36,145 bases of DNA from contig NZ_JAGGQP010000043.1 in the NCBI RefSeq assembly GCF_018613235.1, positions 1-36,145 of the forward strand. The letters run 5' to 3'. The notes under the pieces were generated by a model. That model made no database searches and was not told the DNA's origin. It saw only the letters and a program-made list of their open reading frames with translations. The position numbers and the translations under genes were made by a program. The stretch's first letter is position 1. Every line of letters starts with the position of its first letter. This document shows positions 1-30,385 of this stretch, piece after piece. Origin of the DNA: Bacillus sp. ISL-41. Lineage in GTDB: Bacteria; Bacillota; Bacilli; Bacillales; Cytobacillaceae.

Positions 1-246
1 TGCCCGTGAAAGAGGAAATCGAGAGAGCACGGTCACAAGAAGGGTGAACTTGTGCCCGTGAAAGAGGAAATCGGAAGAGCACGGTCACAAGAAGGGTGAA
101 CTTGTGCCCGTGAAAGAGGAAATCGAAAGAGCACGGTCACAAGAAGGGTGAACTTGTGCCCGTGAAAGAGGAAATCGCAAGAGCACGGCCACAAGAAGGG
201 TGAACTTGTGCCCGTGAAAGAGGAAATTTCAAGAGCACGGTCACAA
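1..246. repeat. 52-nt tandem repeat array A (about 4.7 units)
   Basis: Units begin at 1, 53, 105, 157 and 209, an exact 52-nt period, and the array is cut by the window start. Each unit carries CCCG and, 28 nt later, GGTCAC (GGCCAC in unit 4). Units are nearly identical except for a 4-nt window about 20 nt into the unit (CGAG, CGGA, CGAA, CGCA, TTCA). The junction between units can fold as GGTCACAAG against CTTGTGCCC. Because 52 is not a multiple of 3, the open frame on the minus strand is a by-product and not a gene. It belongs with arrays at 5231, 23767 and 30289. Confidence 0.95.
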
Positions 247-263
247 CAGGTTTTAGAGCATAG

Positions 264-290
264 AAAAAGAGGAGGAATCCTCCCCTTTTT
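264..290. terminator. bidirectional terminator after the NERD gene
   Basis: AAAAAG-AGGAGGA pairs with TCCTCC-CCTTTTT around a very short loop, giving A/T tracts on both sides. It lies just beyond the stop of the minus-strand NERD gene and separates it from repeat array A. Confidence 0.75.
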
Positions 291-299
291 CAAAGTTTA

Positions 300-1205
300 C
301 TACTCATAAAAAGTAGAGCTGCCCTCCCCTTGAGCGAGAAAATTGTGCTTTAAGACTCTTCGAATGGTTTTTTGGGGGAAGATTCCATTTACCCATTCGT
401 AAATTATTGATGTGGTCACCTTTTGGTCAGGGAAGAGCAATTGATAGGTTACAATAGTACGCAAGACGGCAGAATCAATTGTTTCCTTAGAACTACAATG
501 AATACAGTAGAAATTATAACGGTTGTAACTCTCCATCAACCCACCGCACTCTCCACAAATAACCCCCTTCCTCAACATTCCAAATTCATAACTCGGCACT
601 CTTGAGTATGGCGACTTCTTGATATGCAGGGACAATAGGGCTTCGGCCAATTTGGTATGTTTGTTATTCAGCTTAGAAGAGGCTCTATTCATATTTTTCA
701 TAAAGCGATTCATCTGGTTTGGCAAAATAATGGGTGATTTTAATGGTGCCTGCAGAAGGGCGAATTCTGGGTTAATGAACACGAGGTGAGGTTCAAGAGG
801 AATGTAGAAGCCAAGTTCCTTAAGCAGTTGTTTTAATAGTGATTCAGCGCGACTTAGTTGGTGGAGGGGGTTTTTGATTTCTTTGCCGGCGGCCGTCTTA
901 AATTTGTCTCCATCCAGATAATAGTCCCCTTCAAGATTCTTCACTTCAAAAAGATGCAGCCGGTCCTGCGTGATGACGAATGAGTCGATTTGAAAAAGGG
1001 TGCCATTCACTTCGAGCAGCAGGTCGTTGATAATGATACTCTCAACTTGGTAATTCGTAAACCAATGGTCGAATTGCACTTCACCTTCATAGCCTTTTTC
1101 CAGCGTTCGCAGGTTCTGTGCATCTTTCTCTTCCAGTTCCATCCTTGGCTCCAGGGCTTGCAACAATTGTAATTCTTCTGGTTTGGTTCTTTCTTTTACT
1201 ATCAT
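300..1205 (-). CDS. NERD-domain protein with C-terminal zinc ribbon
   Basis: The 301-aa protein carries a NERD (nuclease-related) domain at about residues 35-150. Nuclease-like residues are visible: E41 in GYEGE, D74 in QIDSF, and E87/K89 in FEVK, the D-ExK arrangement shared with PD-(D/E)XK-type folds. A four-cysteine zinc ribbon follows (C217, C220, C234, C237), and the C-terminus is helical and basic. No signal peptide or membrane segment is seen, so it is probably cytoplasmic. The start is ATG with AGAAAGGAAG upstream on the minus strand. It is transcribed alone, away from the riboswitch, and ends at the terminator at 264-290. NERD proteins are suspected DNA- or RNA-processing factors with no well-proved role. 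A nuclease role is inference. Confidence 0.85.
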   Translation of the reverse strand: MIVKERTKPEELQLLQALEPRMELEEKDAQNLRTLEKGYEGEVQFDHWFTNYQVESIIINDLLLEVNGTLFQIDSFVITQDRLHLFEVKNLEGDYYLDGDKFKTAAGKEIKNPLHQLSRAESLLKQLLKELGFYIPLEPHLVFINPEFALLQAPLKSPIILPNQMNRFMKNMNRASSKLNNKHTKLAEALLSLHIKKSPYSRVPSYEFGMLRKGVICGECGGLMESYNRYNFYCIHCSSKETIDSAVLRTIVTYQLLFPDQKVTTSIIYEWVNGIFPQKTIRRVLKHNFLAQGEGSSTFYE

Positions 1206-1275
1206 ATTCCACTTCCTTTCTTCTCTATTTTAAAAAAAGACCAAACGAAAAACAGTGAACATTTTCCAACATTTT

Positions 1276-1302
1276 AGAATCTTGATTTAACTAAAAGATT
1301 CT
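1276..1302. promoter_or_regulatory. inverted repeat over the riboswitch promoter
   Basis: AGAATCTT (1276-1283) and AAGATTCT (1295-1302) form an 8-nt perfect inverted repeat with an 11-nt gap. It covers the -35 box and most of the spacer of the promoter at 1282-1310. It could be a protein operator, but no regulator is encoded nearby. Confidence 0.4.
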
Positions 1303-1310
1303 GATAGTAT
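1282..1310 (+). promoter_or_regulatory. SigA-type promoter for lysine riboswitch leader
   Basis: TTGATT (1282-1287), a 17-nt spacer and TAGTAT (1305-1310) stand about 25 nt before the first conserved riboswitch helix. Spacing and position fit a vegetative promoter. Confidence 0.7.
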
Positions 1311-1334
1311 TAACCTAATTTCATATGATCTTAT

Positions 1335-1516
1335 CAGATCGGTGAGGTAGAGGAGCGAATAACAAGAGTAGTCCATCGGAGTATGACATCGTTGATGGTG
1401 GATAAAAGGGTTGTTTGCCGAAGCGTGGCCAGGGTCAAACTGGTTACTGCTGGGATGTTTCCTGAATAAGGAGCAGACTGTCATGCTTGATTTTGTGCAT
1501 GGAGAACTACTGATCG
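1335..1516 (+). ncRNA. lysine riboswitch (L-box)
   Basis: The L-box consensus blocks appear in order: GAGGTAGAGGAGCGAA (1344-), AAGAGTA (about 1364), an AAAAGGG block, GCCGAAGC (1417-1424), a TGGTTACTGCTGGG block, CTGAATAAG, AGACTGTCAT (about 1475-1484) and the closing P1 strand GGAGAACTACTGATC. The outer helix pairs about GATCGGTGAGG with CTACTGATC. A terminator hairpin follows at 1541-1576. By the known mechanism, bound lysine favours termination, so the downstream gene is expressed when lysine is low. The next gene is an amidohydrolase, which is not a usual L-box target. Confidence 0.93.
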
Positions 1517-1540
1517 AAATGGAGGATAACGTATATTGTA

Positions 1541-1576
1541 AAAAGCAATGATAGGTTATTTTCTATCATTGCTTTT
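1541..1576 (+). terminator. expression-platform terminator of the lysine riboswitch
   Basis: AAAAGCAATGATAG (1541-1554) pairs perfectly with CTATCATTGCTTTT (1563-1576) around an 8-nt loop, and its 3' arm ends in the T run. It stands 24 nt after the riboswitch P1 helix. An open frame starting at the ATG inside this hairpin (1548) is not the real start of the next gene. Confidence 0.92.
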
Positions 1577-1700
1577 TTGCATGTTAGAGCTTTTCCACTA
1601 TCCCCTTCTATCAAACTCCTTTTGCATACGTCCGTATGCGCACTTCTCATTATTTTCAAGCATGATCTGTCTCACTTTAAAACCAAAGGGGAGAATCTTC

Positions 1701-3299
1701 TTGAGAACCATCTACAAAAATGGAACGATCTATACATTCAATTCACGCAATCCAATTGTACAGGCAGTGGTCATTGAAAATGGCCGTTTTATCGATATGG
1801 GAACTACCGCGGATATGGTGCTGCAGTGGGGCGGCCAGGCGCAAATCATTGACCTGGAAGGGAAGACGGCTACGCCGGGTTTAATCGACAGTCATCTTCA
1901 TCTGTCCATTATGGCGGATAGTTTCATCAACCTTGATTTTGTCGGAGTCACTTCAAGGCATGAGATGCTGGCAAAAATCAAGGCAAGGGCCAGTCAGCTT
2001 GAGCCTGGCGAATGGATTGTCGGCAGCAGCTGGGATGAGAACCTTTTTACCGATGGAGGAATTCCGACGATTGCAGAGCTGGATCATGTTGCTCCAGCCA
2101 ATCCGTTATTTTTAACGAGGACTTGCCTGCACGCGACCCTGGTCAATAGCAAGGCGCTCGAAGTGAGCGGCTATCATCCCTTAATCGCAGTTCCAGAGGG
2201 AGGAACAATCGTACTTGATGAATTCACGAAACAGCCGACCGGCCTGTTCCTTGAGTCAGCTGCGAATCTGGTCAGGACGTACATCCCAGAGCGTTCATAC
2301 GATGACTGGAAAAAAGCGATGCGCCAGACGATGCATTTTGCGATGAGCAAAGGGCTGACAAGCGTGCATACAAATGATCCGCTGTATCTCGGCGGACTTG
2401 AAAAAACATGGGATCTATTCAATGAGCTTTTAAATGGAGAGCAGCTCGGCTTGCGCAGCAATCTTTTGATTAACCATGAATTTTTACCAAACCTAAAAGA
2501 GGCTGGAATGTACACAGGCTATGGCAATGACACGCTGCAAATCGGGGCGGTGAAAATTTTTGCCGATGGGGCCTTTGGACGAAGGACCGCTTTGTTGTCG
2601 GAACCATATAGCGATGCACCGGGCCATTACGGCGATGCGATGTATGACCAGGAACAGATGTACGAAATCGTCGGTGGTGCACGTGAATTGGATATGCCAA
2701 TCGCGGTGCATACAATTGGCGACAAAGCCCTCGAAAATTTGCTGGACGTGCTTGACCAATTTCCTGCAGCAGCGTATCGCGACAGGCTGATCCATGCGCA
2801 GGTCCTGCGGGAGGAACTGATTCCTCGCCTGAAATCACCGAGCCGGATTGCTGATATACAGCCGCGCTTCATCGCCAGCGATTTCCCATGGGTTCAGGAG
2901 CGTCTTGGCGCAGAGCGGATTAAGCTTTCATATGCCTGGAAAACACTGATGGAAGCAGGCGTCATTTGTGCTGGAGGGTCGGATTCCCCAGTCGAACCCG
3001 TCGATCCTATTCTCGGAATCCATGCTGCAGTCACTCGGAAAAAACCAGGCGAAACTCACGATGGTTATGTACCAGAGCAGAAGCTGTCGATGGTCGATGC
3101 ATTTCGTCTTTTTACAGAATTAGGAGCTTATCCAACTAATGAAGAGACACTCAAAGGCACAATCGCTCGGGGGAAATTAGCTGACCTGACCGTTTACTCC
3201 AAGAATCCATTTGAGATGAAAGACGCTGATGAGCTTTTATCGTTGGATATCGAAATGACAATAATTGGCGGGGAAATCAAATATCGAAGGTTCTCGTAA
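1701..3299 (+). CDS. amidohydrolase family 3 protein (YtcJ-like), under lysine riboswitch
   Basis: With the TTG start at 1701, behind GGGGAG at 1688-1693, the protein has 532 aa. A longer frame from 1548 would begin inside the riboswitch terminator, and homology begins only after 1701. It has the metal-dependent amidohydrolase fold of the YtcJ/N-substituted formamide deformylase type. Visible features are an N-terminal beta-sandwich strand, TPGLIDSHLHL with H65 and H67, K285 in GAVKIFADGAFG, H337 in AVHTIGDKAL, IHAQ, and D428 in AGGSDSPVEPVDP. Such enzymes hydrolyse amide or imide bonds, usually with one or two divalent metals. The substrate cannot be read from the sequence. The riboswitch suggests that it helps when lysine is short, for example by releasing an amine or lysine from an N-acylated or cyclic derivative; that is inference. 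No signal peptide is seen. Confidence 0.9.
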   Translation: MRTIYKNGTIYTFNSRNPIVQAVVIENGRFIDMGTTADMVLQWGGQAQIIDLEGKTATPGLIDSHLHLSIMADSFINLDFVGVTSRHEMLAKIKARASQLEPGEWIVGSSWDENLFTDGGIPTIAELDHVAPANPLFLTRTCLHATLVNSKALEVSGYHPLIAVPEGGTIVLDEFTKQPTGLFLESAANLVRTYIPERSYDDWKKAMRQTMHFAMSKGLTSVHTNDPLYLGGLEKTWDLFNELLNGEQLGLRSNLLINHEFLPNLKEAGMYTGYGNDTLQIGAVKIFADGAFGRRTALLSEPYSDAPGHYGDAMYDQEQMYEIVGGARELDMPIAVHTIGDKALENLLDVLDQFPAAAYRDRLIHAQVLREELIPRLKSPSRIADIQPRFIASDFPWVQERLGAERIKLSYAWKTLMEAGVICAGGSDSPVEPVDPILGIHAAVTRKKPGETHDGYVPEQKLSMVDAFRLFTELGAYPTNEETLKGTIARGKLADLTVYSKNPFEMKDADELLSLDIEMTIIGGEIKYRRFS

Positions 3300-3306
3300 A
3301 AGCATG

Positions 3307-3350
3307 GGGACGGTTCTAACTTCCATTCGGAAGAAAGAATCGTCCTTTTT
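3307..3350 (+). terminator. terminator after the amidohydrolase
   Basis: GGACGGTTCT pairs with AGAATCGTCC, with an inner TTCC/GGAA pairing, followed by TTTTTAGTTTTT. It isolates the amidohydrolase from the chemoreceptor gene. Confidence 0.8.
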
Positions 3351-3370
3351 AGTTTTTATGGCTAAAGTCC

Positions 3371-3397
3371 TAAAATCTTCTGAATTTGTGCCGAAAT
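3371..3397 (+). promoter_or_regulatory. SigD-type (motility sigma) promoter
   Basis: TAAA (3371-3374), a 15-nt spacer and GCCGAAAT (3390-3397) match the Bacillus SigD consensus TAAA-N15-GCCGATAT with one mismatch. It lies about 50 nt before a chemoreceptor gene, the classic kind of SigD target. Confidence 0.8.
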
Positions 3398-3447
3398 AGA
3401 TAATAGATAGAATACAGTGCAATTTGCGCTGCTAAGGAGAGCGGATG

Positions 3448-5184
3448 ATGAAGATCAAAAAGCGATTCAAGGTTAAGCAGGTAAAGCTTAATACAAAGTT
3501 CACGGTTCGGAAAAAACTATTTGCTGGCTTCTTCTCTGTATTGGCGCTGCTGGCGTTGGTGGCAGTGATCACCAACTTACAATTCGGCAAGATGAACAGC
3601 CAGTATTCAACCTCCATTAATGATCGTATGGAAAAGCTTAATCTGATTGTCGAGATGAAGGATGCCATCATGAGGGAACAGCTGGCACTCCAAAAATATA
3701 TGGCAAATGGCGATGGTGAAAGCCTGATTGAATTTGAGGGCGCTGTTGAGGATTTCAAGAAAAACTCAGAGAAATATTTGAGCATTACAGAATCCGCCGA
3801 GGGGAAAAAGGTAGGAGAGAACCTTATTGCTGCCGAGGCAGCATATTACGTAGTAGCTTCAGAGGCCTTTATTTTAATAAGGGATGAACAAACGGTCAAG
3901 GTCAGATTGCTGATGCAAAAGGAAGGAAATCCACTCATCTTCAACCTGAATTCTGCCGCTGAGGATGCAATTGAGTACCAGCAGGATGCCTTGGATGCGA
4001 CGAGTGAAACGTTATCTGGGGAAGTACAGAAAGTAGCTCTGCTCATCATTGTGATCAGTGCAGCGGCATTTATCATTGGAACGGCGATTGCTACCTATAT
4101 CAGCAGAATGATTTCTAAGCCTGTCCAGCTTGTATCAAGCGCGGTCAAGCAAATGGCTGACGGAAACCTGGCTATCGAGAAAATCAATGTGAAAAATAAA
4201 GATGAGATTGGCCAGTTGGCTGCAGATTTCAATGAAATGGCAGCTAACTTGCGGAACTTAATTTATCAGGTTAGCAGCACATCGGAGCAGGTTGCGGCAT
4301 CTGCTGAGGAAATGATGGCTAGTGCAGACCAGACGAACTCGGCTACGAACCAGGTAGCGACAGCCATCCAGGAAGTGGCAGGCGGTGCAGAACTTCAAAG
4401 CAAGAATACGGAAGAAAGTGCGAAGGCAGTAGGAGAGATGGCGGGAGGAATCCAGAGGGTTGCCGTCACAACATCCACGGTCGCAGAGTCCGCAGCGGAT
4501 ACGACGAAACAGGCTATGCTCGGACATGAATCTTTGGAAAAAGTGATTGAGAAAATGAAAACAATCAATCATACGACAAGTGAAACGAATGCCGTCATCA
4601 AGGATTTGGATCGCAAATCGGCTGAGATAGGAAAGATCATTGAGGTCATTACCGGAATCGCTGACCAGACCAACTTGCTTGCCCTGAATGCAGCCATTGA
4701 AGCAGCAAGGGCTGGTGAGCATGGAAAAGGATTTGCCGTTGTCGCGGATGAAGTCCGAAAGCTTGCGGAACTCTCAAGACAGTCAGCAAGCCAAATCTCC
4801 GGCTTGATTGAAGTTATTCAAAAAGAAACCCACCAGGTCGTTGAAATGATGAACAAAGGAACAACTGAAATTTCCGAGGGAACTTCGTTGGTGGAAGACA
4901 CTGGCAAGACATTTGACGAGATTTTAAAATCGATTGAGAATGTCAGTTCGGAAATCCAGGAAGTCTCCGCAATTTCAGAAGAGATGTCAGCAAGTGTCAT
5001 GGAAGTGAACGCCTCAATTGACGAAGTGACCAAAATCGCCCGCGGCTCCGTCGCAAGCACAGCAGAAATCGCTTCTGCAACTGAAGAGCAGCTGGCTTCG
5101 ATGGAAGAAGTCGCAGCATCATCCGCATCCCTCGCACGACTTGCAGAGAACCTGAGAGAGATGGTCGGGAAGTTTAAAGTTTAA
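3448..5184 (+). CDS. methyl-accepting chemotaxis protein, membrane-bound
   Basis: This is a transmembrane chemoreceptor of 578 aa from the second of two adjacent ATGs (3445 and 3448). AAGGAGA at 3434-3440 is better spaced for the second. TM1 is about residues 22-45. A 150-residue extracellular helical sensor of the four-helix-bundle type follows, then TM2 at about 195-218, a HAMP domain at about 219-270, and a long cytoplasmic coiled-coil signalling domain. The hairpin tip ([20 protein letters not shown], near 405-425) contacts CheA and CheW. EQ-rich methylation-type helices flank it, and no CheR-binding pentapeptide is seen at the C-terminus. The ligand is unknown. The promoter is SigD-type, and the gene is alone between two terminators. 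Confidence 0.95.
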
Positions 5185-5192
5185 TTAGGGGA

Positions 5193-5224
5193 GAAGCATA
5201 TCACGCTGATATGCTTCTTTTTTT
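5193..5224 (+). terminator. terminator after the chemoreceptor
   Basis: GAAGCATATCA and TGATATGCTTC form a perfect 11-bp stem with a 3-nt loop, followed by a run of seven or more T. Confidence 0.93.
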
Positions 5225-5230
5225 GCGACG

Positions 5231-5420
5231 TATTGGCGTCCGAAAAAACGAGATATTGGAAAGAGAGGTCACCAATAAAGAGTATTGGCGCTAGAAAATT
5301 GAGTTTTTGAAAAAAAGAGGTCACCAATGGAGCGTATTGGCGCCTGGAAAAATGAGATATTGGAAAAAGAGCTCATCAATAAACCGTATTGAATCATTCA
5401 AAAGAGAACAGGTCACTAAT
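5231..5420. repeat. 52-nt tandem repeat array B
   Basis: TATTGG-type unit starts fall at 5231, 5283, 5335 and 5387, an exact 52-nt period. GGTCAC or its derivative lies at 5267, 5319 and 5371, each 28 nt after the CCCG-like position of the unit. The last unit is about 12 nt short, with GGTCAC at 5411. Unit junctions fold as CACCAATA against TATTGG(C)G. Short open frames across the array follow no codon pattern and are not called. The array fills the space between the chemoreceptor terminator and the 62-aa gene. Confidence 0.9.
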
Positions 5421-5521
5421 ATTCTCGCGATTGCCTCCCCAGGTGCATTCGCCCAAGCCAAAACCGTGATAAACGCATATAAAATTAGTGAAGACAAAAA
5501 GAGAAGAGGGAGGTAAGCCGT

Positions 5522-6683: not shown

Positions 6684-9600
6684 TTACTTTTTGCCCTTTT
6701 TGTCGACTTTGATGACCACAGTTGTTAATGGATCAAGAGTTAACTTGCCATTTGACAGCTTAAAGCCGGTTGGCTTGGAAACAGGTGTTTTTCCTGCTTC
6801 ATCGTTATCGACAAGAACCTTAGCTTTAGAGAAGTCAAGATTTTCTAATGTCAAGGTACGAGCTGTCATATCAGCGTTTACGAATACATAGTACGTGCCA
6901 GTCTTATCGGTTGATACATTTTCGTACGCTATGACTAAGTCTGTATCCTTGATTTCAGGAAGGTCAAGCAATCTTACATTCTGGTCAACGAGTTCTTTTT
7001 CACCGAGGCGGAAAGCGTTCGTTGATTTTCTCAGCTCGATCAAGCCTTGAGTGTAGGCTTGTGTTGTTGTGTTGACTGAGAATTCCTTCTTGTTTGTTGC
7101 CTTTTGCCAGTCGAACATGTTGATTGCATCTGATGAATCATATGAATCGTGGATGAAGTAGCCAAATGGCTGGCCTTGTGCATCTGTCAATTCATGATAC
7201 TTTTGCTCAGGAACACCTTCACCTTTCCATTGCTTCGTTCTTCCATACTCCTGGCCTGCGTGAAGGAAAGCAGTACCCTGTGACGTCAGGATCAAGGAGT
7301 TTCCTAGACGAATGCGTTTGTGAATTTCAAAATTGTTCTCCGGAATTGCCGGATCCTTTTTAATGGACTGGGCAATAACATCATATAACGGTAAGTTATC
7401 GTGTGCTGCGATGTATTGAACCATGTCTCCTGGATCGTCGTCAGCTGTGTTGCCAGGCTGGCCTTTGATATTGTTGAAAATCGTGTTGATATCACGCGCA
7501 CCGCCAGTCAGGAATCGAGGCTCACCTTCTGAACCGAAGCCTGATTTCAATTCATTGCGGATTTCATCAGAGAATACACCGACATCATCGGTTTTATCCA
7601 TCCAATCCTGGTCAGCGCCCATGCCAGCTAGATCAGGCTCGGCGATGTGGCCAGCGAATGTTCTCCAGCCTTCACCGATGAACAATGCATCAGGGTTAAC
7701 AGAAGCTGCTGCATTATATGCATTTTGCACTGCAGGATAGGTAGCGTCACCCATCATATCAAAGCGCATTCCATCGATCTTGTATTCTTCGAACCAGTAT
7801 TTCACTGAATCTACCATCAGCTTTTCAGCCATTGTATGGCTTGTTGCCAGATTGTTTCCAAAGCCGCCAAGGAAGTTACCTTGTGCGTCCTGGAACGCAT
7901 AGTAGTTAGGAACGATATCATTCAGCTGGCTTGCTTGTGCCATATGAGTGTACACAACGTCAAGGACGACACCCATTCCAGCATCATGGATCGCATCAAT
8001 CATCATTTTCAGTTCTTTCACGCGTAATTCAGGATCTGTTGCATCTTCTGAATAGGCGCCATCCGGCGAGAAGTAGCTGTGTGGGTCATAGCCCCAGTTA
8101 TACTCGTTGCCGCCAGCAGAGTATTCAAGTTCTCTTTGGCCCATCTTCGTTTCATCGCCATAATACCACGCCATTACAGGCAGTAATTGAACGTGTGTTA
8201 CGCCAAGCTTTTTAATATAATCCAGCTTGTCGACGAAGGCATTGTAAGAACCCCATCTTGCGTTCAGGTCACCTGCGATTGTAGGGTCAGACGTGAAGTC
8301 ACGTACGTGAACTTCGTAAATCACAGCGTCTTCACGTTTTTCATAGCCTTTGATTTTTGCATGGTCGAAATCTTCAGGGTTCGTTCCGCTCAGGTCAACA
8401 ATCGCTGCTTTACCAACGGTATCCCCATCCGGACCAGCTTCACCCTTCGTATTCACCGTAAAGGCTGCCATCGATTTTGCATAAGGGTCAAGAACCTTCT
8501 TTGTGACTCCATCATTTGTCACTTCATACTGGTAAAAATAACCCTTAAGATCAGATACATTCAGGTCGCCAGGAGCAATGTCCGCAGACCAGACACCTTT
8601 TTCACCCTTTGTTAACTCAATGCTGCCAATTTGCTCTGCTGCATTGTCTTTATTGAAGAAGTTCGCCACAACCTTAGTTGATTTTGGAGCCCATAGCTTC
8701 AATGTAGCTGAGCCATCCTTATAAATAGCACCAAGATCATCACCATCATAAGCAAACATTTCATCGAGCATTCTCCAGCTTATAGCTGCAGAAACTGTTC
8801 TGTCTGCAAAAGTTACGGATAATGGAAGCTTGTTTAAATCAAATGAAGCTTTTACTTTAACGGTTTTGTTGTCGTTTGTAATTTCAACACTTTCAATTGA
8901 AACTGCTGTACCATCTGCATCTTTGATTTCCAGCTTTGATTTTAAATTATCAGCTGTTAAGCCATCTGTCATAGTGAAGCCTAATAGAATAGTATCTTCT
9001 GAGACTACTTCTGCAGATGTAAGGCCGGTTGCCTGCTCCCAATATGGAGAGATATAGACATTATCATCGCCTTGTCTGACCCAAACGTGGTTGTATCTGT
9101 CCAGAAGGTTGAAAGTTTTATCTCCGCCATCCTTCGCACTATTTGTCCTATTGAGAGTGATCATGCCAATTTCTTTAGCATTTTCCTTTAGTTGAATGTC
9201 AACATACGCACCATAACGATCCGTGCCAGAGAAGGAAGCAGCTCCTGCTGGCCAGTTCTCAGAAGGTGCAGCGACATCGCCCCAGTTCCAAAGACCAAAG
9301 TTTTCATAGTCAGCGTTGTCACGTACATAGTGGACGCGGACAGTGTTTTCAGGAAGGTTGACTGGTTCGAAAGTGTAAACCTTGTCATCTTCTTGCTTGA
9401 TAAAAATTTCATTGATTTCAGATGAAGTGATCGTAAAGCCTTTGTCACCGCCGTCTTTACCTGCATCACCTTTTGTTACATCCATAACCAGGAAACCAAT
9501 GTTCTTTGCGCCGTCTGCAAGCTCGACATCAATGTATGCGCCATAGCTGTCTGTTTTCTCAAACATGGTAGCACCTGTCGGCCAGTTGGCAGAAGGGGAG

Positions 9601-12251
9601 GCCACATCGTTCCACAGCCATGCACCATAATTCTGATAGTTGTTGTCGTCACGCTTGTAGTGGATGCGGATATGGTTCGCTGGGATTGGTTCGACAGTGC
9701 CGTCGCCATTTCCGTCGCCATTTCCATCATCATTTCCATCTTCAGCAGGAATGATCGCGCCATTTTCAACCGTTAGTAGAACTGTACCGCCATCTGCTTT
9801 AGAGGGGATTGTTAATGTCACTTTTCCAGCTGTGGCAGTGTAAGTGTTATTTGAATAGTGGTCAGTTACCGTTGCGTTTTCACCATCAACAGTAAGTGTC
9901 ACTTCTTTTGCGCTATCAGAGATGTTCAATCCTACATATGCGTTTTCATTTCCGTAATTTCTCGCAAAAAGTAGATACTGATCAGTGTCTGATCCAGCGA
10001 TTGTCGTGCGTTCACCTTTTGCGAACACTTCAGAATGTTCTCCCCTGAAGTTTAAAATCTTTTGATAGTGTCCAAGGACATCATTGCCTTCGACCTGATC
10101 CCATGTCAGGTCATAGCGGTTGTCGTATTGTGGATAGTTATTTGCTCCTGATTGTCCTAGTTCTTCACCGTAATAAATAACTGGCTGGCCCTTAGCTGTA
10201 GCCTGCAGGGAAGCAGCCACTTTCAACTTGCCCTCGTCATTCCCTACAGCATGTAAGAACCCATCTTCATCATGGCTGCCGAGGAACTGTCCAAGTGTAG
10301 CAGTGTTATCAATTTTTGCGTTACGGTCAATCAGTGCATTGTTTGCTGAATTAAGGCTGCCGTTAACAAAGCTCTTTGCGATATTTTTAAAATCAAAGTC
10401 AAGCAGGGAGTCCATCATGCCTGTTTCCAGGTAGCCTAGCTGATTCTCTGCGCTTGCACCCCAGGCCTCGCCAATCATTTTGTGTTCTGGCATTTTTTCG
10501 GTAATAGCATTTTTAAATGCCATCCAAGTAGTATCTTCAACGTGCTTTACTGTGTCAACACGGAAGTAGTCGATTGTGTTGCCGTTATTAGTTGTTGCTT
10601 CCTCAATCCATTTTGTCTGCCAGTCGATGATTGTCTGGCGGACTGTTGGATCTTCTGTTTTAAAGTCAGGAAGATCTGCCAGCTCCCCGACGACTTCATC
10701 ATCGCCAACATTGGAACCCTGGCGAAGAAGGCTGCTAAATGTGCTGCGCTCCGCGTCAGTTGGGTAGCCAGCTGGCGGATTCTCCGCAGTGCCATCAATA
10801 TCTTTCAAGCCGTACCCCGTGTGATTCAATACCACATCGACCATGATTTTAATGCCGCGCTCATGTGCAGCGTCAATCAAGGTATGGAAATCTTCCATTG
10901 TTCCAAAGTGAGGGTTTAACCCACCGAAATTGCTGGCCCAATAGCCATGGTAGGCATAATAGGAATGCTCATCATCGGAGCGTACATCGTACTTAATGTT
11001 CTCCACGATCGGGCTGATCCAAATGGTATTAACACCCAGCTTATCCAGGTAATCGAGTTTCTGGGTAATTCCTTTAAAATCACCGCCCTGGTAGGTACCA
11101 CGGTCATTCTTTTCTTCATAGTTCTGATTGTAAGGATCATTATTAGTGGAATCCCCATCAAAAAACCTGTCTGTCAGCATGAAATAGATAATCGACTCAT
11201 CCCAGTCAAAATCATTTTCACCGACGGATTGTCTTGTTTTTACATCCACAGTAGCTGTGCCATTATGTGCATTTCCAAATGAATCAATAACTGTTAGTGG
11301 AATCGATTTTGTTCCTGCAGTTACGTTATCGTCGACTGCAATTGTTACTTCTTTTAACGCTGGGTCGACTTCAAGAGCATTAGATCCGCCAATTGAGGAT
11401 ACGTCGGCTGTGATCTTCCTGACTTCAATGCCATCTGTCAGGCCTTCTACATCAACTGTCAGCACAGCATTTTCGTTGTAGTCAATCTCATCCGGTTGAA
11501 CAGAACCGGAAACAGTTAACTCAGTGTTTGTGTGAGAAATCGTTGACTTGCCATCAACGGTGTTGTAAGGATCAGTTACTTCATTTGTCCCGCCATCTTT
11601 CGTCGTGACGAGGTAAGTATATTCATTTGTGCCATTTGGAATGTTTTCATATGAAGCTGCGAATCTCTCATTCTCTGGCTCGTATGTCATTGGAATCGTT
11701 TCGCCATTGAACTGTAATTCTACTTTTTCAATCGTGTGCATTGCATCGGAAGCGAAAAGTTCTTTATCTCGATAGAAGAAAGTAGCATTGCCATTATCGA
11801 TGACAGGAGCTGACCCATCGGGAACGATGCGAATTTGCTCAACGCCACTTGTGATGAATGCTTTTGTAATGGAATCGTTCTGGTTAACTGAGATAAAACG
11901 ATCTCCGAATTCCTTTTGAGCAGTATTCCAGTCAGTAGTACTGCGAAGGACAAAGCCGATTTCTTTGGTGGCAGGTGCAACAGCAATATCAGCTATCGCT
12001 TTGTTACCATCATATTTTTGAAAATTGATCTGGTCATTTTGCACTCCTGTGTTCCAGACCCATATATTCCATTCGCCAAAATTTTGATCTTCACGAATAT
12101 AGGTAAAGCGCACTTTGCGATCAGTCGTTTCTGAGGTTACAGTGGTTCCTTCCGCATTAGCCTGCTGTACGGGTATAAAAGGAAGCCATAAACTCAGAAT
12201 CATAATTGCAGTCATGAAAATAGAAAAGCTGCGTTTTGTGCTTTTACTCAT
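6684..12251 (-). CDS. secreted amylopullulanase with two catalytic domains
   Basis: From the ATG at 12251 (after GGGAGGA), the protein is 1855 aa; the open frame extends upstream but lacks support. A signal peptide of about 33 residues ends QQANA. A starch-binding PUD/CBM41-like module follows, then Ig-like segments, then a GH13 alpha-amylase domain (about 345-825) with VVLNHTGYG, nucleophile D near 565 (FRVDTVKH), acid/base E near 594 (GEAWG) and SHDED near 660. After an Asp/Gly-rich linker (about 829-850) come two similar CBM41 modules (about 854-954, 967-1064), a CBM48-like module and a pullulanase GH13 domain. That domain shows YNWGYDP near 1384, MRFDMMGD near 1495, GEGWR near 1526 and AAHDN near 1617. 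Size and layout match the two-active-site alkaline amylopullulanase type known from Bacillus sp. KSM-1378. It should cut alpha-1,4 and alpha-1,6 bonds of starch outside the cell. No cell-wall anchor is seen, and no maltodextrin uptake genes lie beside it. Confidence 0.95.
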   Translation of the reverse strand: MSKSTKRSFSIFMTAIMILSLWLPFIPVQQANAEGTTVTSETTDRKVRFTYIREDQNFGEWNIWVWNTGVQNDQINFQKYDGNKAIADIAVAPATKEIGFVLRSTTDWNTAQKEFGDRFISVNQNDSITKAFITSGVEQIRIVPDGSAPVIDNGNATFFYRDKELFASDAMHTIEKVELQFNGETIPMTYEPENERFAASYENIPNGTNEYTYLVTTKDGGTNEVTDPYNTVDGKSTISHTNTELTVSGSVQPDEIDYNENAVLTVDVEGLTDGIEVRKITADVSSIGGSNALEVDPALKEVTIAVDDNVTAGTKSIPLTVIDSFGNAHNGTATVDVKTRQSVGENDFDWDESIIYFMLTDRFFDGDSTNNDPYNQNYEEKNDRGTYQGGDFKGITQKLDYLDKLGVNTIWISPIVENIKYDVRSDDEHSYYAYHGYWASNFGGLNPHFGTMEDFHTLIDAAHERGIKIMVDVVLNHTGYGLKDIDGTAENPPAGYPTDAERSTFSSLLRQGSNVGDDEVVGELADLPDFKTEDPTVRQTIIDWQTKWIEEATTNNGNTIDYFRVDTVKHVEDTTWMAFKNAITEKMPEHKMIGEAWGASAENQLGYLETGMMDSLLDFDFKNIAKSFVNGSLNSANNALIDRNAKIDNTATLGQFLGSHDEDGFLHAVGNDEGKLKVAASLQATAKGQPVIYYGEELGQSGANNYPQYDNRYDLTWDQVEGNDVLGHYQKILNFRGEHSEVFAKGERTTIAGSDTDQYLLFARNYGNENAYVGLNISDSAKEVTLTVDGENATVTDHYSNNTYTATAGKVTLTIPSKADGGTVLLTVENGAIIPAEDGNDDGNGDGNGDGTVEPIPANHIRIHYKRDDNNYQNYGAWLWNDVASPSANWPTGATMFEKTDSYGAYIDVELADGAKNIGFLVMDVTKGDAGKDGGDKGFTITSSEINEIFIKQEDDKVYTFEPVNLPENTVRVHYVRDNADYENFGLWNWGDVAAPSENWPAGAASFSGTDRYGAYVDIQLKENAKEIGMITLNRTNSAKDGGDKTFNLLDRYNHVWVRQGDDNVYISPYWEQATGLTSAEVVSEDTILLGFTMTDGLTADNLKSKLEIKDADGTAVSIESVEITNDNKTVKVKASFDLNKLPLSVTFADRTVSAAISWRMLDEMFAYDGDDLGAIYKDGSATLKLWAPKSTKVVANFFNKDNAAEQIGSIELTKGEKGVWSADIAPGDLNVSDLKGYFYQYEVTNDGVTKKVLDPYAKSMAAFTVNTKGEAGPDGDTVGKAAIVDLSGTNPEDFDHAKIKGYEKREDAVIYEVHVRDFTSDPTIAGDLNARWGSYNAFVDKLDYIKKLGVTHVQLLPVMAWYYGDETKMGQRELEYSAGGNEYNWGYDPHSYFSPDGAYSEDATDPELRVKELKMMIDAIHDAGMGVVLDVVYTHMAQASQLNDIVPNYYAFQDAQGNFLGGFGNNLATSHTMAEKLMVDSVKYWFEEYKIDGMRFDMMGDATYPAVQNAYNAAASVNPDALFIGEGWRTFAGHIAEPDLAGMGADQDWMDKTDDVGVFSDEIRNELKSGFGSEGEPRFLTGGARDINTIFNNIKGQPGNTADDDPGDMVQYIAAHDNLPLYDVIAQSIKKDPAIPENNFEIHKRIRLGNSLILTSQGTAFLHAGQEYGRTKQWKGEGVPEQKYHELTDAQGQPFGYFIHDSYDSSDAINMFDWQKATNKKEFSVNTTTQAYTQGLIELRKSTNAFRLGEKELVDQNVRLLDLPEIKDTDLVIAYENVSTDKTGTYYVFVNADMTARTLTLENLDFSKAKVLVDNDEAGKTPVSKPTGFKLSNGKLTLDPLTTVVIKVDKKGKK

Positions 12252-12333
12252 GCGAATCTTTTCCTCCCTAAATGAATTAATCTTGCAAGAATAGTAGAAG
12301 AAGTCCTCCTTTCTTAAACAATGGAATCCTAAG

Positions 12334-12347
12334 TGAAACCGTTTGCA
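12334..12347 (-). promoter_or_regulatory. cre-like operator (CcpA type)
   Basis: TGAAACCGTTTGCA is a near match to the catabolite-responsive element TGWAANCGNTNWCA (one mismatch). It lies about 85 nt upstream of the amylopullulanase start, where bound CcpA would block transcription in the presence of glucose. Confidence 0.65.
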
Positions 12348-12381
12348 CAATTCGGTAAAAAATTTTAAAAGGCCCAAATAA

Positions 12382-12395
12382 TGCAAGCGCTTGCA
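12382..12395 (-). promoter_or_regulatory. LacI/GalR-family operator (perfect palindrome)
   Basis: TGCAAGCGCTTGCA is a perfect 14-nt palindrome with the central CG typical of LacI-family sites. Its centre is 48 bp upstream of the cre-like site. It could bind CcpA or a maltose/starch repressor such as a MalR homologue; none is encoded in the window. Confidence 0.6.
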
Positions 12396-12699
12396 AAAAA
12401 CTTTCGTCTCAATTTTACAATACTTTAACACGGTCAGCAATGAATGGAGAGGAGCCTGAATGCATGTAAATAGTGCCAAAATACTACATGATTTGATAAA
12501 AGAATAGGCTTATAGTATTTGTTGATTGTCAGTTTATAAGAAATTCTCTTGGTAATCTACTTGAAAGCAAAGAAATATGTCGGAATAAATATATAAATGA
12601 GATAGAAAATGAATAATAAGACCTATCTTGAAAGTCTGCTTTATTGAGTAAAATCATGTATCTTTACGATAGATAGTTAAACGAAAGAGGTTTTGGAAA

Positions 12700-23738: not shown

Positions 23739-23766
23739 ATTTATCTGACTCATACATTCTAATAAA

Positions 23767-23893
23767 GGTCACTAATAGAGGGTAACGGTACTGCGTATTG
23801 GCGCCCGAAAAATCCAAGTCGAGGAAAAACAGATCACCAATAGAGCGTATTGGCGCCCAAATAATCCAAATAGCGGAAAAACAGGTTACCGAT
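23767..23893. repeat. 52-nt tandem repeat array C
   Basis: TATTGGCGCCC units begin at 23796 and 23848, exactly 52 nt apart. GATCAC (23832) and GGTTAC (23884) each lie 28 nt after CCCG or its derivative. A preceding half-unit has GGTCAC at 23767, shifted by 13 nt relative to the period because of an apparent insertion (GGTAACGGTACTG) before the CGTATTGG. The unit junction can fold as CACCAATA / TATTGGCG. It sits between the AhpD-like gene and the amidase. Confidence 0.88.
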
Positions 23894-23968
23894 GAATGAT
23901 GCATAACAAAAGAGGAATTTAAATATTTTTAGAGAAAGTAGATAAAAAAATAGATGGTGGTGAGGGCG

Positions 23969-25462: not shown

Positions 25463-25463
25463 G

Positions 25464-25485
25464 TTTAATCAAACGTTTGATTAAA
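25464..25485. repeat. perfect 22-nt palindrome, operator-like
   Basis: The 22-nt sequence from 25464 to 25485 is its own reverse complement, with core AATCAAACGTTTGATT. It starts one base after the amidase stop and lies before the terminator. AT-rich palindromes with central ACGT are typical of TetR- or LacI-family operators, but no promoter or regulator gene is visible here. Confidence 0.7.
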
Positions 25486-25511
25486 AAGAGTCAAACCCTT
25501 GATAGTACTGA

Positions 25512-25545
25512 AAAGAGGCAGTTGCGGCTGCCTCTTTCTTTTTTA
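25512..25545. terminator. terminator between convergent genes
   Basis: AAAGAGGCAG pairs with CTGCCTCTTT, and a T run follows in the plus direction. It closes the amidase gene and may also act on the minus-strand unknown gene. Confidence 0.88.
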
Positions 25546-26034: not shown

Positions 26035-26146
26035 TCAATTTCCCCCTTCACTGTATTCCTGCCCATATTCTATTCGTTCGGGGCAAAAGCGTGCTTGTTA
26101 GCAAACTGCCTGAGCGGGTAAAACAAGCTAAAAAGGAATGGTTTAA

Positions 26147-26593: not shown

Positions 26594-26629
26594 AAAAAAT
26601 TCCCCCTGATGATAGAAAAATCAGGGGGG
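26593..26629 (-). terminator. terminator of glpD
   Basis: On the minus strand CCCCCTGAT-type arms (ATCAGGGGG / CCCCCTGAT) enclose a short loop and are followed by ATTTTTTT. It overlaps the end of the DUF4385 gene. Confidence 0.85.
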
Positions 26630-26633
26630 TCAC

Positions 26634-28289
26634 TTATTTTACAGGTATGACAGCTTCATTTAAAGCCCCTTCAAGTTCCAAAGTAAACGCTTCTGTTTGC
26701 CGGTCATTCCAGCTGAATTGGTCACGCATGAAGTTAATAACATTTTCCTTGAAGTTATGCACAAGGCGGATATTGAATAAAATCGCTCCTGTCCGCCTAT
26801 TGAAGAAGTCGACTGGTGTGGCTGCCGCTTCATACTGGATAGCGTAAACCAGCTTTGCAAACAACTCTAATGGCAGGCCATATTGATCTGCTTCTTGCTT
26901 GTGTTCGGATGCAAGCTGGAACATAATCGGAGTGTTCGAACCATACTGGCAGGCAAGACGGCGGGCTTCTTCTTTAGTGAGGCCAGCTATCACGCCTTCT
27001 TCAAGCTGTTTTTCCACAAAAGAGTCAAGGTTTGCAGAACCGCCGACATCCCCGCCTGAAATAGGCAGGTTCTTCGTCTGGCAGCCAGGGAAGCTGAGTC
27101 CATCTTCTTTAGCGAATTTCTCGGCAAGCAGGTCGACAATCGTTTCCGCCATTTTACGGTAGCCAGTCAATTTTCCGCCGGCGATGGTGATCAGTTTTGA
27201 ATCAGATTCCCAGATTTCATCTTTTCTGGAGATTTCAGAAGGAGCCTTGCCATCCTCGTGGATCAGCGGCCTGATGCCTGCCCAGCTGGATTCAACATCT
27301 TTTTCCGTCACATTGACATCCGGGAACATATATTGAATTGCTTTAAGAAGATAGCTTCTATCTTCCTCCGTCATGCCCGGATTGATTGGATTTTCATTGT
27401 AAAAAGTATCGGTCGTGCCGACATAGGTTTTGCCATCTCGCGGAATCGCGAAGACCATCCGTCTGTCAGGCGTGTCAAAATAGATAGCTTGTTTGAGCGG
27501 GAAACGTGATTGGTCAATGACGATATGGACACCCTTTGAAAGCTTCAGGGTTTTTCCTTTTTTCGAATCATCCATTTCACGAATGCCATCAACCCACGGG
27601 CCAGTTGCATTGACCACTTTTTTGGCATGGACTTCGTAATCCTCGCCTGTTAACAGATCCTGTACAAGGACTCCTGAAACAACTCCATTTTTATAAATAA
27701 GGTTTTTAACTTTAGAATAGTTCAATGCTGTTGCGCCTTTATCCACAGCCTGCTTCATGACCTCGATTGTCAGGCGGGCGTCATCGGTGCGGTATTCCAC
27801 ATAATAGCCGCCACCCTTCAATCCGTCTTTTTTCACTAGCGGTTCCTTTGCCAATGTTTCGGCCGCGCTGAACATTTTCCGTCGCTCCGATCTTTTGACG
27901 CCAGCTAAAAAGTCATATACCCTCAGGCCGATGGAGGTGCTGAAGCTGCCAAATGTTCCGCCTTTATGGAAGGGGAGAAGCATCCATTCCGGTGTCGTGA
28001 CATGCGGGCCATTTTCATACACAATCGCCCGTTCCTTGCCGACTTCAGCAACCATTTTTACTTCAAATTGTTTTAAATAACGCAAGCCTCCGTGCACGAG
28101 CTTTGTAGAACGGCTTGAAGTGCCTGCCGCAAAATCCTGCATTTCCAACAGGGCGATGTTCATTCCCCTTGTTGCAGCATCCACTGCGATCCCGGCACCG
28201 GTAATGCCGCCGCCAACGACAAGGACATCAAATGTTTCAGTTTTCAGTTTCGATACTATATTTTTACGGTCGAGATTTGAGAATCTCAT
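26634..28289 (-). CDS. glpD: aerobic glycerol-3-phosphate dehydrogenase
   Basis: The 551-aa protein is an FAD-dependent glycerol-3-phosphate dehydrogenase that oxidises glycerol-3-phosphate to dihydroxyacetone phosphate and passes electrons to the quinone pool at the membrane. FAD binding GGGITGAG is at about residues 26-33. Family motifs include [30 protein letters not shown] and [12 protein letters not shown], and the length equals B. subtilis GlpD. The ATG at 28289 has AAGGAGG 8 nt upstream on the minus strand; a longer frame to 28346 would run through the leader terminator and is rejected. The leader at 28311-28372 gives GlpP-dependent antitermination. glpP lies immediately upstream. Confidence 0.97.
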
Positions 28290-28310
28290 ACGATACGCCT
28301 CCTTAAGATG

Positions 28311-28372
28311 AAAAAAAGAGAGACCACAAACAACATTATCGCCCAAAAGCCGAAATGTTATCGTGGTCTCTC
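28311..28372 (-). promoter_or_regulatory. glpD leader terminator/antiterminator (GlpP target)
   Basis: On the minus strand GAGAGACCAC (28372-28363) pairs with GTGGTCTCTC (28327-28318), followed by seven T. The 35-nt arm between has a second small stem (AACATT / AATGTT). In B. subtilis GlpP with glycerol-3-phosphate allows read-through of such a leader. Here glpP is directly upstream, consistent with that control. Confidence 0.88.
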
Positions 28373-28405
28373 CAGTTCTCCTACCCGATTTATTAACTTG
28401 TAATC

Positions 28406-28411
28406 ATTATA
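28406..28411 (-). promoter_or_regulatory. glpD promoter -10 (extended)
   Basis: On the minus strand TGATATAAT is an extended -10 element (TGnTATAAT) with only a weak -35 (TGAAAA). It lies between the glpP stop and the glpD leader hairpin. Confidence 0.65.
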
Positions 28412-28430
28412 TCACAGACACCCCGAATTT

Positions 28431-28994
28431 TCATGTGTCGGATTCTTGAAATTGGGAAATTTCCCATAATTCTCTTTTCGATGTAGTGATCGCCGCGGCA
28501 CCAGCATCGAGTGCGTTTTTTACTTCCTCAGGGGTTCTGATCAGGCCGCCTGCAAAAATCGGGATGTTCACTCGTTCCTTGACTTCCTTGATCATCCAGG
28601 GCATCGCTCCCGGTAAAACTTCAATATAATCAGGTCGCGTTTTTTCGATGAGTTTATAGTTTTTCTCGAGTGCATGGGAATCAATCAGGAATACCCTTTG
28701 CACAGCGAGCACTCCTTTTTGCTTTGCTTTTAAAATGACACTCGACTTTGTGGAGATCAAGCCATACGGTTTGTATTCCTGGCATAGATATTCGGTCGAA
28801 TAATCATCACTTTTCAACCCTTGAATCATATCAACATGATAGATCATTTTTTTGCCGTAGCGCTTGGCCATCGCATTAATATTTTTCAATTGAGCGATAT
28901 GTACTTCCAGAATGACACCTATTTCAAAAGGGCTTTCGAGAAACAGCTCAAATTCTTTCATATTCGAAGAGGCGGGCAAGATTTTTTGATTCAA
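28431..28994 (-). CDS. glpP: glycerol uptake operon antiterminator
   Basis: The 187-aa protein matches GlpP: MNQKILPASSNMKEFELFL, YHVDMIQGLKSDDYSTEYL, GLISTKSSVILKAKQKG, DYIEVLPGAMPWMI and FAGGLIRTPEEV. It is a TIM-barrel-like RNA-binding antiterminator that, with glycerol-3-phosphate, stabilises glp leader RNA and prevents termination. The start is TTG, after AAGGATGGG on the minus strand. In B. subtilis glpP heads the glpFK and glpD genes; here glpD follows directly, but glpF and glpK are not in the window. A C-terminal extension is short. Confidence 0.95.
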   Translation of the reverse strand: MNQKILPASSNMKEFELFLESPFEIGVILEVHIAQLKNINAMAKRYGKKMIYHVDMIQGLKSDDYSTEYLCQEYKPYGLISTKSSVILKAKQKGVLAVQRVFLIDSHALEKNYKLIEKTRPDYIEVLPGAMPWMIKEVKERVNIPIFAGGLIRTPEEVKNALDAGAAAITTSKRELWEISQFQESDT

Positions 28995-29154
28995 AAGAAT
29001 CCCATCCTTAAGTTAGATTCTCCATTATCTTAACATGAGAGGCTTGTTTTTTTCTATGACGCAGAGGACACGAGCATACTCAAAATTGTCGAAGATCATC
29101 AAGACTAGTACGATAGTAACAAAGTTAAATATCAAATGACGATGAGGAGATAAC

Positions 29155-30075
29155 ATGCAGATTAGAATAGAAAAGAAGAGCACACAGGTTTTTGAGCAAG
29201 ACGCCGTCCTGGCAGCGATTGAAAGGTCTTTGGCCATGATTGAGTTTGATCCAGATGGAAAAGTGCTCTGGGCGAATGAAAATTTTGCGGAGACAATGGG
29301 CTATCGAGTCGAAGAAATGCCGGGACTTTTGCATAAACAGTTTTGTACAACAGAATTCGCTGGAAGCAGAGCCTATAAAGAATTATGGAGAAACCTGCGC
29401 AACGGGAAAAGCTTTCAGGAAAAAATACAGCGAGTCACGAAGAGGGGGAAGTTCCTCTGGCTTGAGGCTACCTATACACCGGTTTACGATTCTTTAGGCA
29501 GAGTTGCTGGTGTGGTCAAGGTAGCTACTGATATAACCGAGCGCGAATTGACTGCGACAAGACTTGCACAGCAGCTTCAGCAAATGTCCGAAGACTTAAG
29601 GGCACGGGCGGAAATGGGCATTACAAGAAGTGAAGAAGCAGCCTCGGCGGCTAGCAAGCTTGTTGAGGAGTCAAAAGAAAATTCCGAAATTCTCGTATCT
29701 CTCCAATCACAGGCCAAATCGATCGGCAACATCGTGCAGACCATTCGCGAAATAGCCGCACAAACCAACCTGCTTGCCCTGAACGCAGCCATCGAAGCGG
29801 CAAGAGCCGGGGAGCATGGAAGAGGCTTTAATGTCGTTGCCGGAGAAGTAAGGAAACTCGCTACACGTGTCCAGGATTCAATCCAGGAAGTCAATGAACA
29901 CATCGAAGGAATAGCAGGCGAAATTACCAAAATCAACGAAGCCACCCAGCGCTCGCAAAATGGCATCACCAACAACCAGGCACTCAATGAACAAGCGGTA
30001 GCCGCCTTCAAAGAAATCGGCAGTGCTGCCCGCGAATTGGACCAGCAGGCAAAGACATTCAAGGACATATTATAA
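29155..30075 (+). CDS. soluble PAS-domain chemoreceptor
   Basis: The 306-aa protein lacks transmembrane segments. A PAS domain (about 20-130: [43 protein letters not shown], and a PAC-like end [11 protein letters not shown]) is followed by a short chemoreceptor signalling domain with tip [20 protein letters not shown]. The coiled coil is much shorter than in the membrane receptor at 3448, like soluble receptors of the B. subtilis YfmS kind. It probably senses an internal signal such as redox or a small ligand through the PAS domain and acts on CheA. ATG follows GAGGAG. No methylation pentapeptide is seen. Confidence 0.92.
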
Positions 30076-30084
30076 GGAACACGG

Positions 30085-30113
30085 ACACCGTCGATTATGG
30101 CGGTGTTTTTTTT
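30085..30113 (+). terminator. terminator after the PAS chemoreceptor
   Basis: ACACCGTC pairs with GGCGGTGT around GATTAT (one wobble), followed by eight T. Confidence 0.9.
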
Positions 30114-30152
30114 GTGGTAAAGCAAGAAGCTTTATAAAGAGAGGGTAAGCAT

Positions 30153-30181
30153 GGTGACATAGAGAGGCCGTCTATGTCACC
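30153..30181. repeat. perfect hairpin without a T tract
   Basis: GGTGACATAGA and TCTATGTCACC are perfect complements around a 7-nt loop GAGGCCG. No T run follows in either direction, so it is probably not an intrinsic terminator. It lies between the PAS receptor terminator and repeat array D. Confidence 0.8.
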
Positions 30182-30288
30182 AGATGAGGTGAACTGTTGA
30201 CGAGAAGTCAGGTAGGCAGGTTCTATAAGACCGTATGGGATAAAGGAATCGATAAAAGTTCATATAGGTGAAATCAATATGCTCCTGC

Positions 30289-30385
30289 ATTGCCCGAAAA
30301 AGAGTCGGAAGAGGAAAAACGGTAAAAGAAGAGGTTCTGCATTGCCCGAAAAAGAGTCGAAAGAAGAAAAACGGTAAAAGCAGAA
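30289..30385. repeat. 52-nt repeat array D (two units)
   Basis: ATTGCCCGAAAAAGAGTCG occurs at 30289 and 30341, exactly 52 nt apart. GGTAAA lies 28 nt after CCCG (30293 to 30321), the same offset as GGTCAC in arrays A-C. The units differ by a few bases. The GGTAA / TTGCC pairing is weak. The unit is more diverged from A-C, and is assigned to the family by period and spacing rather than identity. Confidence 0.75.

Follow-up and report, generated by a model that had tools for sequence, protein, structure and literature searches.

The stretch of DNA analysed here (the window) is the whole of contig NZ_JAGGQP010000043.1 (G000:C38) of Bacillus sp. ISL-41, 36,145 nucleotides (nt) in length, and the features of interest are four tandem arrays of 52-nt units that lie between its genes. 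The host genome (G000) comprises 4.62 Mb in 57 contigs. The window genes scanned near the arrays are ordinary chromosomal ones, encoding chemotaxis receptors, an amidase, RNase J, a pullulanase and others. The arrays belong to three sequence classes (A, B and C) and are read on the minus strand:

Array 1, class B, 1..252, minus strand: four full units at 44-96, 96-148, 148-200 and 200-252, and an additional unit truncated at the contig edge; the unit reads CTTGTG A CCGTG - loop - CACGG G CACAAG on the minus strand.
Array 2, class A, 5228..5421, minus strand: units at 5228-5280, 5280-5332 and 5332-5384 and a degenerate fourth at about 5385-5421; a hairpin that by eye resembles a terminator, belonging to the upstream chemotaxis-receptor gene, precedes the array.
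Array 3, class A, 23764..23897, minus strand: units at 23793-23845 and 23845-23897 with a partial unit ahead of them; a carboxymuconolactone-decarboxylase-like gene lies on one side and the amidase gene on the other.
Array 4, class C, 30282..30386, minus strand: two units at 30282-30334 and 30334-30386, flanked by a PAS/chemotaxis-receptor gene and the RNase J gene; class C units occur at the same locus in other species.

An earlier note on this DNA had credited all four arrays with an exact 52-nt period. The period is present in all four and is exact in arrays 1, 3 and 4; array 2 is imperfect, its fourth copy being degenerate. Tandem Repeats Finder (TRF) reported a period of 52 at 1-246 (95% match), 5229-5391 (76% match, 5% indels) and 30285-30384 (93%), and the array near 23767-23893 was absent from its output at score 30. 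The distance of 28 nt that the note had seen between CCCG and GGTCAC (or variants) was recovered in units of all four arrays, as was one of 35 nt from GCCC (or a variant) to the end of GGTCAC (or a variant). The claim that the arrays have no sequence in common needs amending. Arrays 1 and 4 do represent two further classes, but arrays 2 and 3 form a single one (TATTGG..CCAATA), and all four share a core. Eleven 50-nt segments drawn from all four arrays align without gaps around it, so the concern that the arrays might prove unrelated in an alignment was not borne out.

Architecture of the unit and its sequence classes

On the pyrimidine-rich minus strand each unit is a palindrome around a long loop, with a conserved mismatch in its stem that the earlier note had not described. 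The class A unit reads TATTGGTG-A-CC ... GG-G-CACCAATA and the class B unit CTTGTG-A-CCGTG ... CACGG-G-CACAAG, while class C has different arms around TACC ... GGGC. In a gap-free alignment of 43 units of classes A-C, 82.2% of stem cells are paired, both sides have changed in 55 stem cells against 19.3 in shuffles, and pairing falls to 33-46% when the partner is shifted by 1-3 columns. The arms thus vary in concert and largely retain their complementarity. The A.G mismatch (columns 12 and 42) is present in 286 of 399 distinct units (A 146/246, B 96/108, C 44/45), these units being drawn from 89 array rows that include the same locus in several species and are therefore not independent. The 89 rows are those kept after clusters with a best score below 28 were dropped; L116, L041, L053 and L054 yielded none.

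The spacing of units is strict. Among the 332 spacings of up to 60 nt between neighbouring units in these same rows, 325 measure exactly 52 nt, and 52 is the modal spacing in 63 of the 66 arrays that contain at least three units. The unit detector was gap-free, so units with indels are under-counted, and eight spacings of 103 nt show that some exist. A length of 52 bp corresponds to five helical turns. Arms pair with the adjoining unit (94 informative positions) about as readily as with their own partner (77), with no clear preference; this is more easily reconciled with shared half-sites or array-wide correction than with a hairpin private to each unit, and it weakens an interpretation as RNA hairpins.

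The note had regarded the shared features of the four arrays as hard to explain by chance and had proposed a scan of the genome and its relatives. A covariance model built from the eleven window units alone found 109 units in G000 at E<=0.1; a fuller model was built from the 43 units. A census free of any model was also made, by autocorrelation over 1,218,246 bases of G000 (60 stretches and the window, 26% of the genome). It found 73 non-coding tandem places, of which 45 were assigned to a unit of 52 (36 places) or 53 nt (9 places). Rows L242 and L243 are one array split at the border of two stretches and were counted once; window array 2 was under the census threshold and is outside the 45. 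The 52/53-nt arrays were picked by hand (periods 52-54 and 103-106), which left out one place at 50, one at 102 and those with other periods. A crowd of unrelated periods, which the note had named as an observation that would undo its case, did not appear: other periods form a minority of 28 places, and for 19 of the 28 the period is 20-21, 40-42 or 60 nt. By extrapolation from the 26% covered, G000 would hold some 170 arrays.

The 45 arrays were grouped manually by arm motif into about ten classes, with three rows fitting none and three fitting two. The class arm motifs beyond A, B and C include TTCGGACAA, GACGGACA, ATCGGACA, TGACAG, AGACATTT and ATGTGCCCC, and the class with a 53-nt unit has the motif CCCTTATG. 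A core of the form GAC[AC]-N25-[TG]G[TG]C was found in 30 of the 45 arrays, against 0-7 arrays for the other spacings from 14 to 43. Similarly, GAC-Nk-GTC has its maximum at k=27 (26 arrays against 0-7 elsewhere), which is the same geometry. The inverted-arm score averages 6.98 in the 41 arrays scored and 2.49 in shuffled units. What stays constant is the geometry; the core is widespread, and each class has arms of its own, in keeping with the note's alternative of one family or one selected architecture.

The period 20-21 places and their multiples (40-42, 60) make up a second intergenic tandem set, with for example TCGCTATAAAAAT and TTTATTTGCGAAA types. Loci of this set are L251, L252, L255 and L258-L261 in G000, L301 in G030, L316 in G036 and L305 in G121, and such repeats also occur in other genera of the family; 21 nt equals two helical turns.

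Direction relative to replication

The asymmetry of the A.G mismatch gives each unit of classes A-C a direction, the alignment of which with replication was likewise not part of the earlier note. Polarity was examined in the complete genomes G003, G005 and G011, with arrays grouped by gene neighbourhood, and was called standard when the A lies in the 5' arm as read on the strand complementary to the leading one. The two rows for L112 belong to a single array interrupted by an insertion sequence (IS) and were counted once, giving 35 loci; the origin of G003 was placed at 4.47 Mb by synteny with G011. In G011 and G005, numbered from coordinate 1, GC skew is positive at all first-half loci and negative at all second-half loci, as expected with an origin at coordinate 1.

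Among individual units, 211 are standard, 2 reversed and 55 neither, and 34 of the 35 loci are standard. The agreement extends over every gene context: co-directional (15/15), head-on (3/3), divergent (4/4) and convergent (12/13). The direction of the loop is also standard except at three convergent loci, and is near-symmetric at two more; at L117/L140, L123/L160 and L129/L146, where the loop is reversed or nearly symmetric, the mismatch still tracks replication. The direction of classes A-C follows replication, not transcription. Next to the quasi-palindromic array L146 (G005) lies a sequence that by eye resembles the start of a group II intron.

A second set of loci was collected by the exact arm pattern and included records of Neobacillus, Cytobacillus, FJAT-49736, FJAT-29937 and Ammoniphilus and two titled Chryseobacterium. 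All 35 of its loci agree by GC skew, although skew also tracks genes, two loci have weak skew, several come from one strain and eight loci of other phyla were dropped; among those eight, five are standard and three reversed. In G000, with all classes taken together, the leading strand as judged by GC skew is also the purine-rich one in 41 of 45 arrays.

Two candidate causes of the polarity were rejected. Base composition does not account for it: the leading strand is 52.5% purine in non-array intergenic DNA and 61.9% in arrays, but at the mismatch position it carries C and T, opposing the purine skew. Strand-specific hairpin stability was set aside as the main cause of orientation since the difference between strands is weak; over the 399 units the pyrimidine strand folds better than the purine strand in 222, worse in 164 and equally in 13 with DNA parameters, and in 229, 157 and 13, respectively, with RNA parameters.

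Genomic position, locus history and distribution

As the note had supposed, the arrays are intergenic. Only 8 of the 89 array rows overlap a predicted open reading frame (ORF), and these ORFs are taken as spurious. A terminator-like hairpin with a T-run stands between gene end and array at 57 of 109 gene ends, compared with 1 of 109 in shuffles; the 109 come from rows that include the same locus in several species and are not independent.

Many arrays are inherited in place. Arrays occur in at least two genomes in 30 of 41 locus groups, and the majority class is kept in 28 of these 30, with one label tie. Copy number at the same locus varies among species, in agreement with the local expansion that the note had proposed, and ranges overall from 1 to 23; lone units persist at L138/L154 (in two species) and at L038. 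Of 19 genomes compared at the MCP-RNase J locus, 9 have at least one scored unit and the remainder have decayed remnants or nothing. In G018 (L195) a different tandem repeat, of 21/42 nt, fills the MCP-RNase J gap where other species have class C. The amidase locus has units in 8 of 16 genomes, and one further case is interrupted by a contig end. The L042 array comprises twelve units in G000, whereas G011, with 93% identity alongside, has a single half-site there. An element of the MITE or IS-end type would have terminal inverted repeats and a target-site duplication at insertion; this near-empty site, the one compared, shows a half-site and not a clean empty site. No scored unit was found at the other placeable loci (two of 15 were not placeable). 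Two arrays of G011 (L112 and L117) contain the same Mutator-family (IS256-type) element, with 1459 identical bases, a 391-codon transposase and a 7-nt repeat at each end.

Two contigs of G000, C38 (window 1-252) and C41 (L041:1-50), start within arrays. The arrays therefore seem to break assembly, and copy numbers there are lower bounds; with at least two contig starts of this kind in one genome, the arrays are relevant for assembly.

With the 43-unit model at E<=1e-4, at least 19 of 21 genomes of the genus, most likely Mesobacillus, were matched, and among the matches listed there was none in G012 (complete) or G010 (66% complete). Under stricter filters at least 21 of 151 sampled genomes of the family and at least 2 of its 25 genera match. 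In the phylum, surveyed with the class A arm pattern, at least 2 of 398 sampled genomes match and both belong to the genus. The exact arm pattern matched 43 stretches in a collection of named genomes: 33 are records of Mesobacillus, Bacillus sp., Neobacillus, Cytobacillus and Ammoniphilus, two are titled Chryseobacterium, and eight belong to other phyla, where the matches are isolated in the stretches read and were excluded as arrays. The two records titled Chryseobacterium sp. ISL-80 (L080, L088) match the pattern in regions of strong GC skew, and their title or assembly may be wrong.

Of the six non-coding tandems in 120 kb of G121, a member of another genus, four are built of 52-nt units that differ in sequence from those above, with GACM-N25-KGKC cores in three and TACC-N25-GGTC in the fourth; the purine direction is standard in one of the four, and polarity there is not established. 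Small samples of G030 (160 kb), G024 (60 kb) and G036 (60 kb) contained no 52-nt arrays. A search of 72,556 plasmid and 50,697 phage records with one 14-unit class A array found nothing, and arm patterns matched viral contigs at one place each (class A 2 contigs, class E 12, class F 3).

Apart from the arrays, the window encodes at 6684-12479 a frame of 1931 amino acids, a very large protein of the amylase/pullulanase type that combines an alpha-amylase domain with CBM_48, pullulanase-associated (PUD) and SpuA C-terminal domains.

Interpretation and comparison with known systems

The reading we prefer, with a probability of roughly 40%, is that all four arrays belong to a single superfamily of polar DNA elements with a putative protein reader. 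The units would function at the DNA level, whether double-stranded or transiently single-stranded, rather than as RNA. A putative protein would bind each half-site, reading the core and the core-to-core distance, and five helical turns per unit would present successive units on the same face and could permit cooperative loading along the array. The direction of the unit would matter to a process borne by the replication fork, such as fork passage, lagging-strand processing or chromosome organisation, and wrongly directed units would be lost. Copy number may shift by unequal recombination or slippage between like units. A bolder version, which is possible but doubtful, makes the arrays polar DNA stations distributed over the chromosome, some 170 of them built to one ruler, with a dedicated reader that travels with the fork or meets it; the class-specific arms would then be variants for one machine that recognises core and geometry, or for paralogous readers.

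Several observations weigh against the preferred reading. Class I has a unit of 53 nt and lacks the core at spacing 25, and in classes D-H the cores are mostly perfect (GACA..TGTC) and lack the mismatch. For the classes other than A-C the sole test of direction is the purine strand by GC skew, a weaker one. Polarity is reversed at L137/L153 in two species, and L166 is standard by its position past the origin while its local GC skew (-0.017) is slightly opposed. Intrinsic bending by phased A-tracts was considered and rejected, the 10.4-bp harmonic being 1.54 compared with 1.53 in shuffled sequence; the harmonic is clearly raised at 8.7 nt (3.22 against 1.38 in shuffles). Some genomes of the genus, such as G012, have no A-C units among the matches listed, and one of the 30 shared locus groups changes class (L109 C, L165 B). 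Individual arrays have been lost in many species, so no single array is indispensable. Lastly, 38 of 178 array strands contain a terminator-like hairpin inside the array, and some arrays could therefore act on transcription.

The units might instead be REP-like mobile hairpins, inserted as single strands into the lagging-strand template by an HUH enzyme or another one specific for single strands, with tandem amplification afterwards, which seems to us rather unlikely. Elements of the IS200/IS605 type behave in this way, and a near-absolute orientation to replication is what lagging-strand insertion would produce. The persistence of lone units, the recurrence of one class at many loci, and stems that vary around a constant core as in REP families also fit. 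The distribution of the transposase does not: the Y1 transposase (Y1_Tnp, PF01797) is missing at E<=0.01 from G016, G019 and G020, which hold at least 84, 19 and 35 units, respectively (E<=1e-4), yet is present in G012, which has no A-C units among the matches listed, and ten Y1 loci of about 3.3 kb each contain no unit. A Y1/RAYT transposase was accordingly rejected as the mover, its presence being uncorrelated with that of units. Moreover, no terminal tetranucleotide is common to the classes, the loci and mostly the class are inherited across species, and the directions of loop and mismatch are uncoupled at several loci.

Inverted arms provoke slippage and template switching at forks, and quasipalindrome correction restores arm complementarity. 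Selfish or neutral repeats without function could on this basis be amplified in one orientation and keep their arms, an explanation that we regard as unlikely. The wide range of copy number, the twelve units facing one half-site at L042, and the IS insertions in two G011 arrays agree with it, as do arms that match the adjoining unit as well as their own, which concerted correction predicts. Correction should, however, erase the mismatch, and 286 of 399 units retain it. Hairpin stability differs little between the strands (222 better, 164 worse with DNA parameters), and the unit measures exactly 52 nt in different classes, and also in other genera, although the loops are unrelated, which suggests a constraint on length.

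It is improbable that the units are structured RNA, each a hairpin of a transcribed array belonging to small RNA genes or untranslated regions. Stem covariation is strong (82.2% paired; 55 double changes against 19.3), G.T exceeds A.C in the stems of the pyrimidine strand (216 to 124), and RNA genes are commonly biased to the leading strand. On the other side, orientation is independent of neighbouring genes, arms pair equally well over unit borders, and gene ends are often set apart from the array by a terminator-like hairpin. In G011 the distance from such a hairpin to the array of the MCP-RNase J locus is about 30 nt, leaving scant room for a promoter on that side. Scanned against Rfam, neither the arrays of the window nor six array loci gave a match. 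The sole match in the window was a lysine riboswitch (RF00168) at 1340-1517, ahead of an amidohydrolase gene. A coincidence of unrelated minisatellites can be dismissed as extremely improbable: other tandem repeats do exist in the genome, but 45 of 73 non-coding places have 52 or 53 nt, the core spacing peaks at 25, a model from the window alone finds 109 units, and the class A arm pattern is confined to the genus in the at least two of 398 phylum genomes that have it.

The interest of the arrays lies in a geometry, and in classes A-C a direction relative to replication, that are kept among the genomes sampled while the arm sequence turns over. They provide an uncommon opportunity to learn which features of DNA are read by a bacterial fork or by a chromosome-organising protein. 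In a culturable genus, a single locus allows orientation, spacing and core to be altered one at a time, and the question is thus directly testable.

Plasmid iterons and other tandem protein-binding arrays consist of tandem sites often spaced by whole helical turns. The arrays share tandem putative sites and whole-turn spacing with them and differ in occupying dozens of chromosomal loci, in their inverted half-sites and in their many classes; next to the arrays of the window, no gene for an initiator was noticed. BOX elements of Streptococcus are intergenic and contain a variable number of an internal module of about 45 nt. Module number and intergenic location are alike, whereas the units described here have their own inverted arms and many classes of one geometry; ends like boxA or boxC were not noticed, and no search was aimed at them. 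KOPS/SRS, Chi and Ter sites are single short motifs whose direction follows replication rather than genes. In classes A-C direction is likewise linked to replication (34 of 35 loci track the fork), but the signal is carried by tandem palindromic 52-nt units with changing arms. CRISPR arrays differ in that here the whole 52-nt unit repeats, with no spacers.

The intrastrand-triplex repeats of E. coli (TMECO) are also intergenic and fold from one strand; no strand-orientation bias is reported for them, unlike the bias seen here, and their C- and G-rich consensus is unlike the units (PMC4666352). A description of these arrays was not found in the literature, as judged from the titles and abstract openings of open-licence papers.

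The nearest kind is REP/BIME, palindromic repeats tagged with GTAG and CGTC, many of which are held to be plausibly transcribed (PMC3733652). Both kinds are short palindromes in many intergenic copies, with families that differ in their stems, single and clustered occurrences and inverted pairs. The arrays differ from REP/BIME in their fixed 52-nt tandem period, their replication polarity and the hairpins that often stand between gene and array. In the 43 aligned units of classes A-C no tetranucleotide is common at either end, so the likeness to REP fails on the tag as well as on the transposase, and no known family tested fits. The 52-nt arrays may be a variant within the broad group of intergenic palindromic repeats of bacteria, although it is a real possibility that they form a kind of their own.

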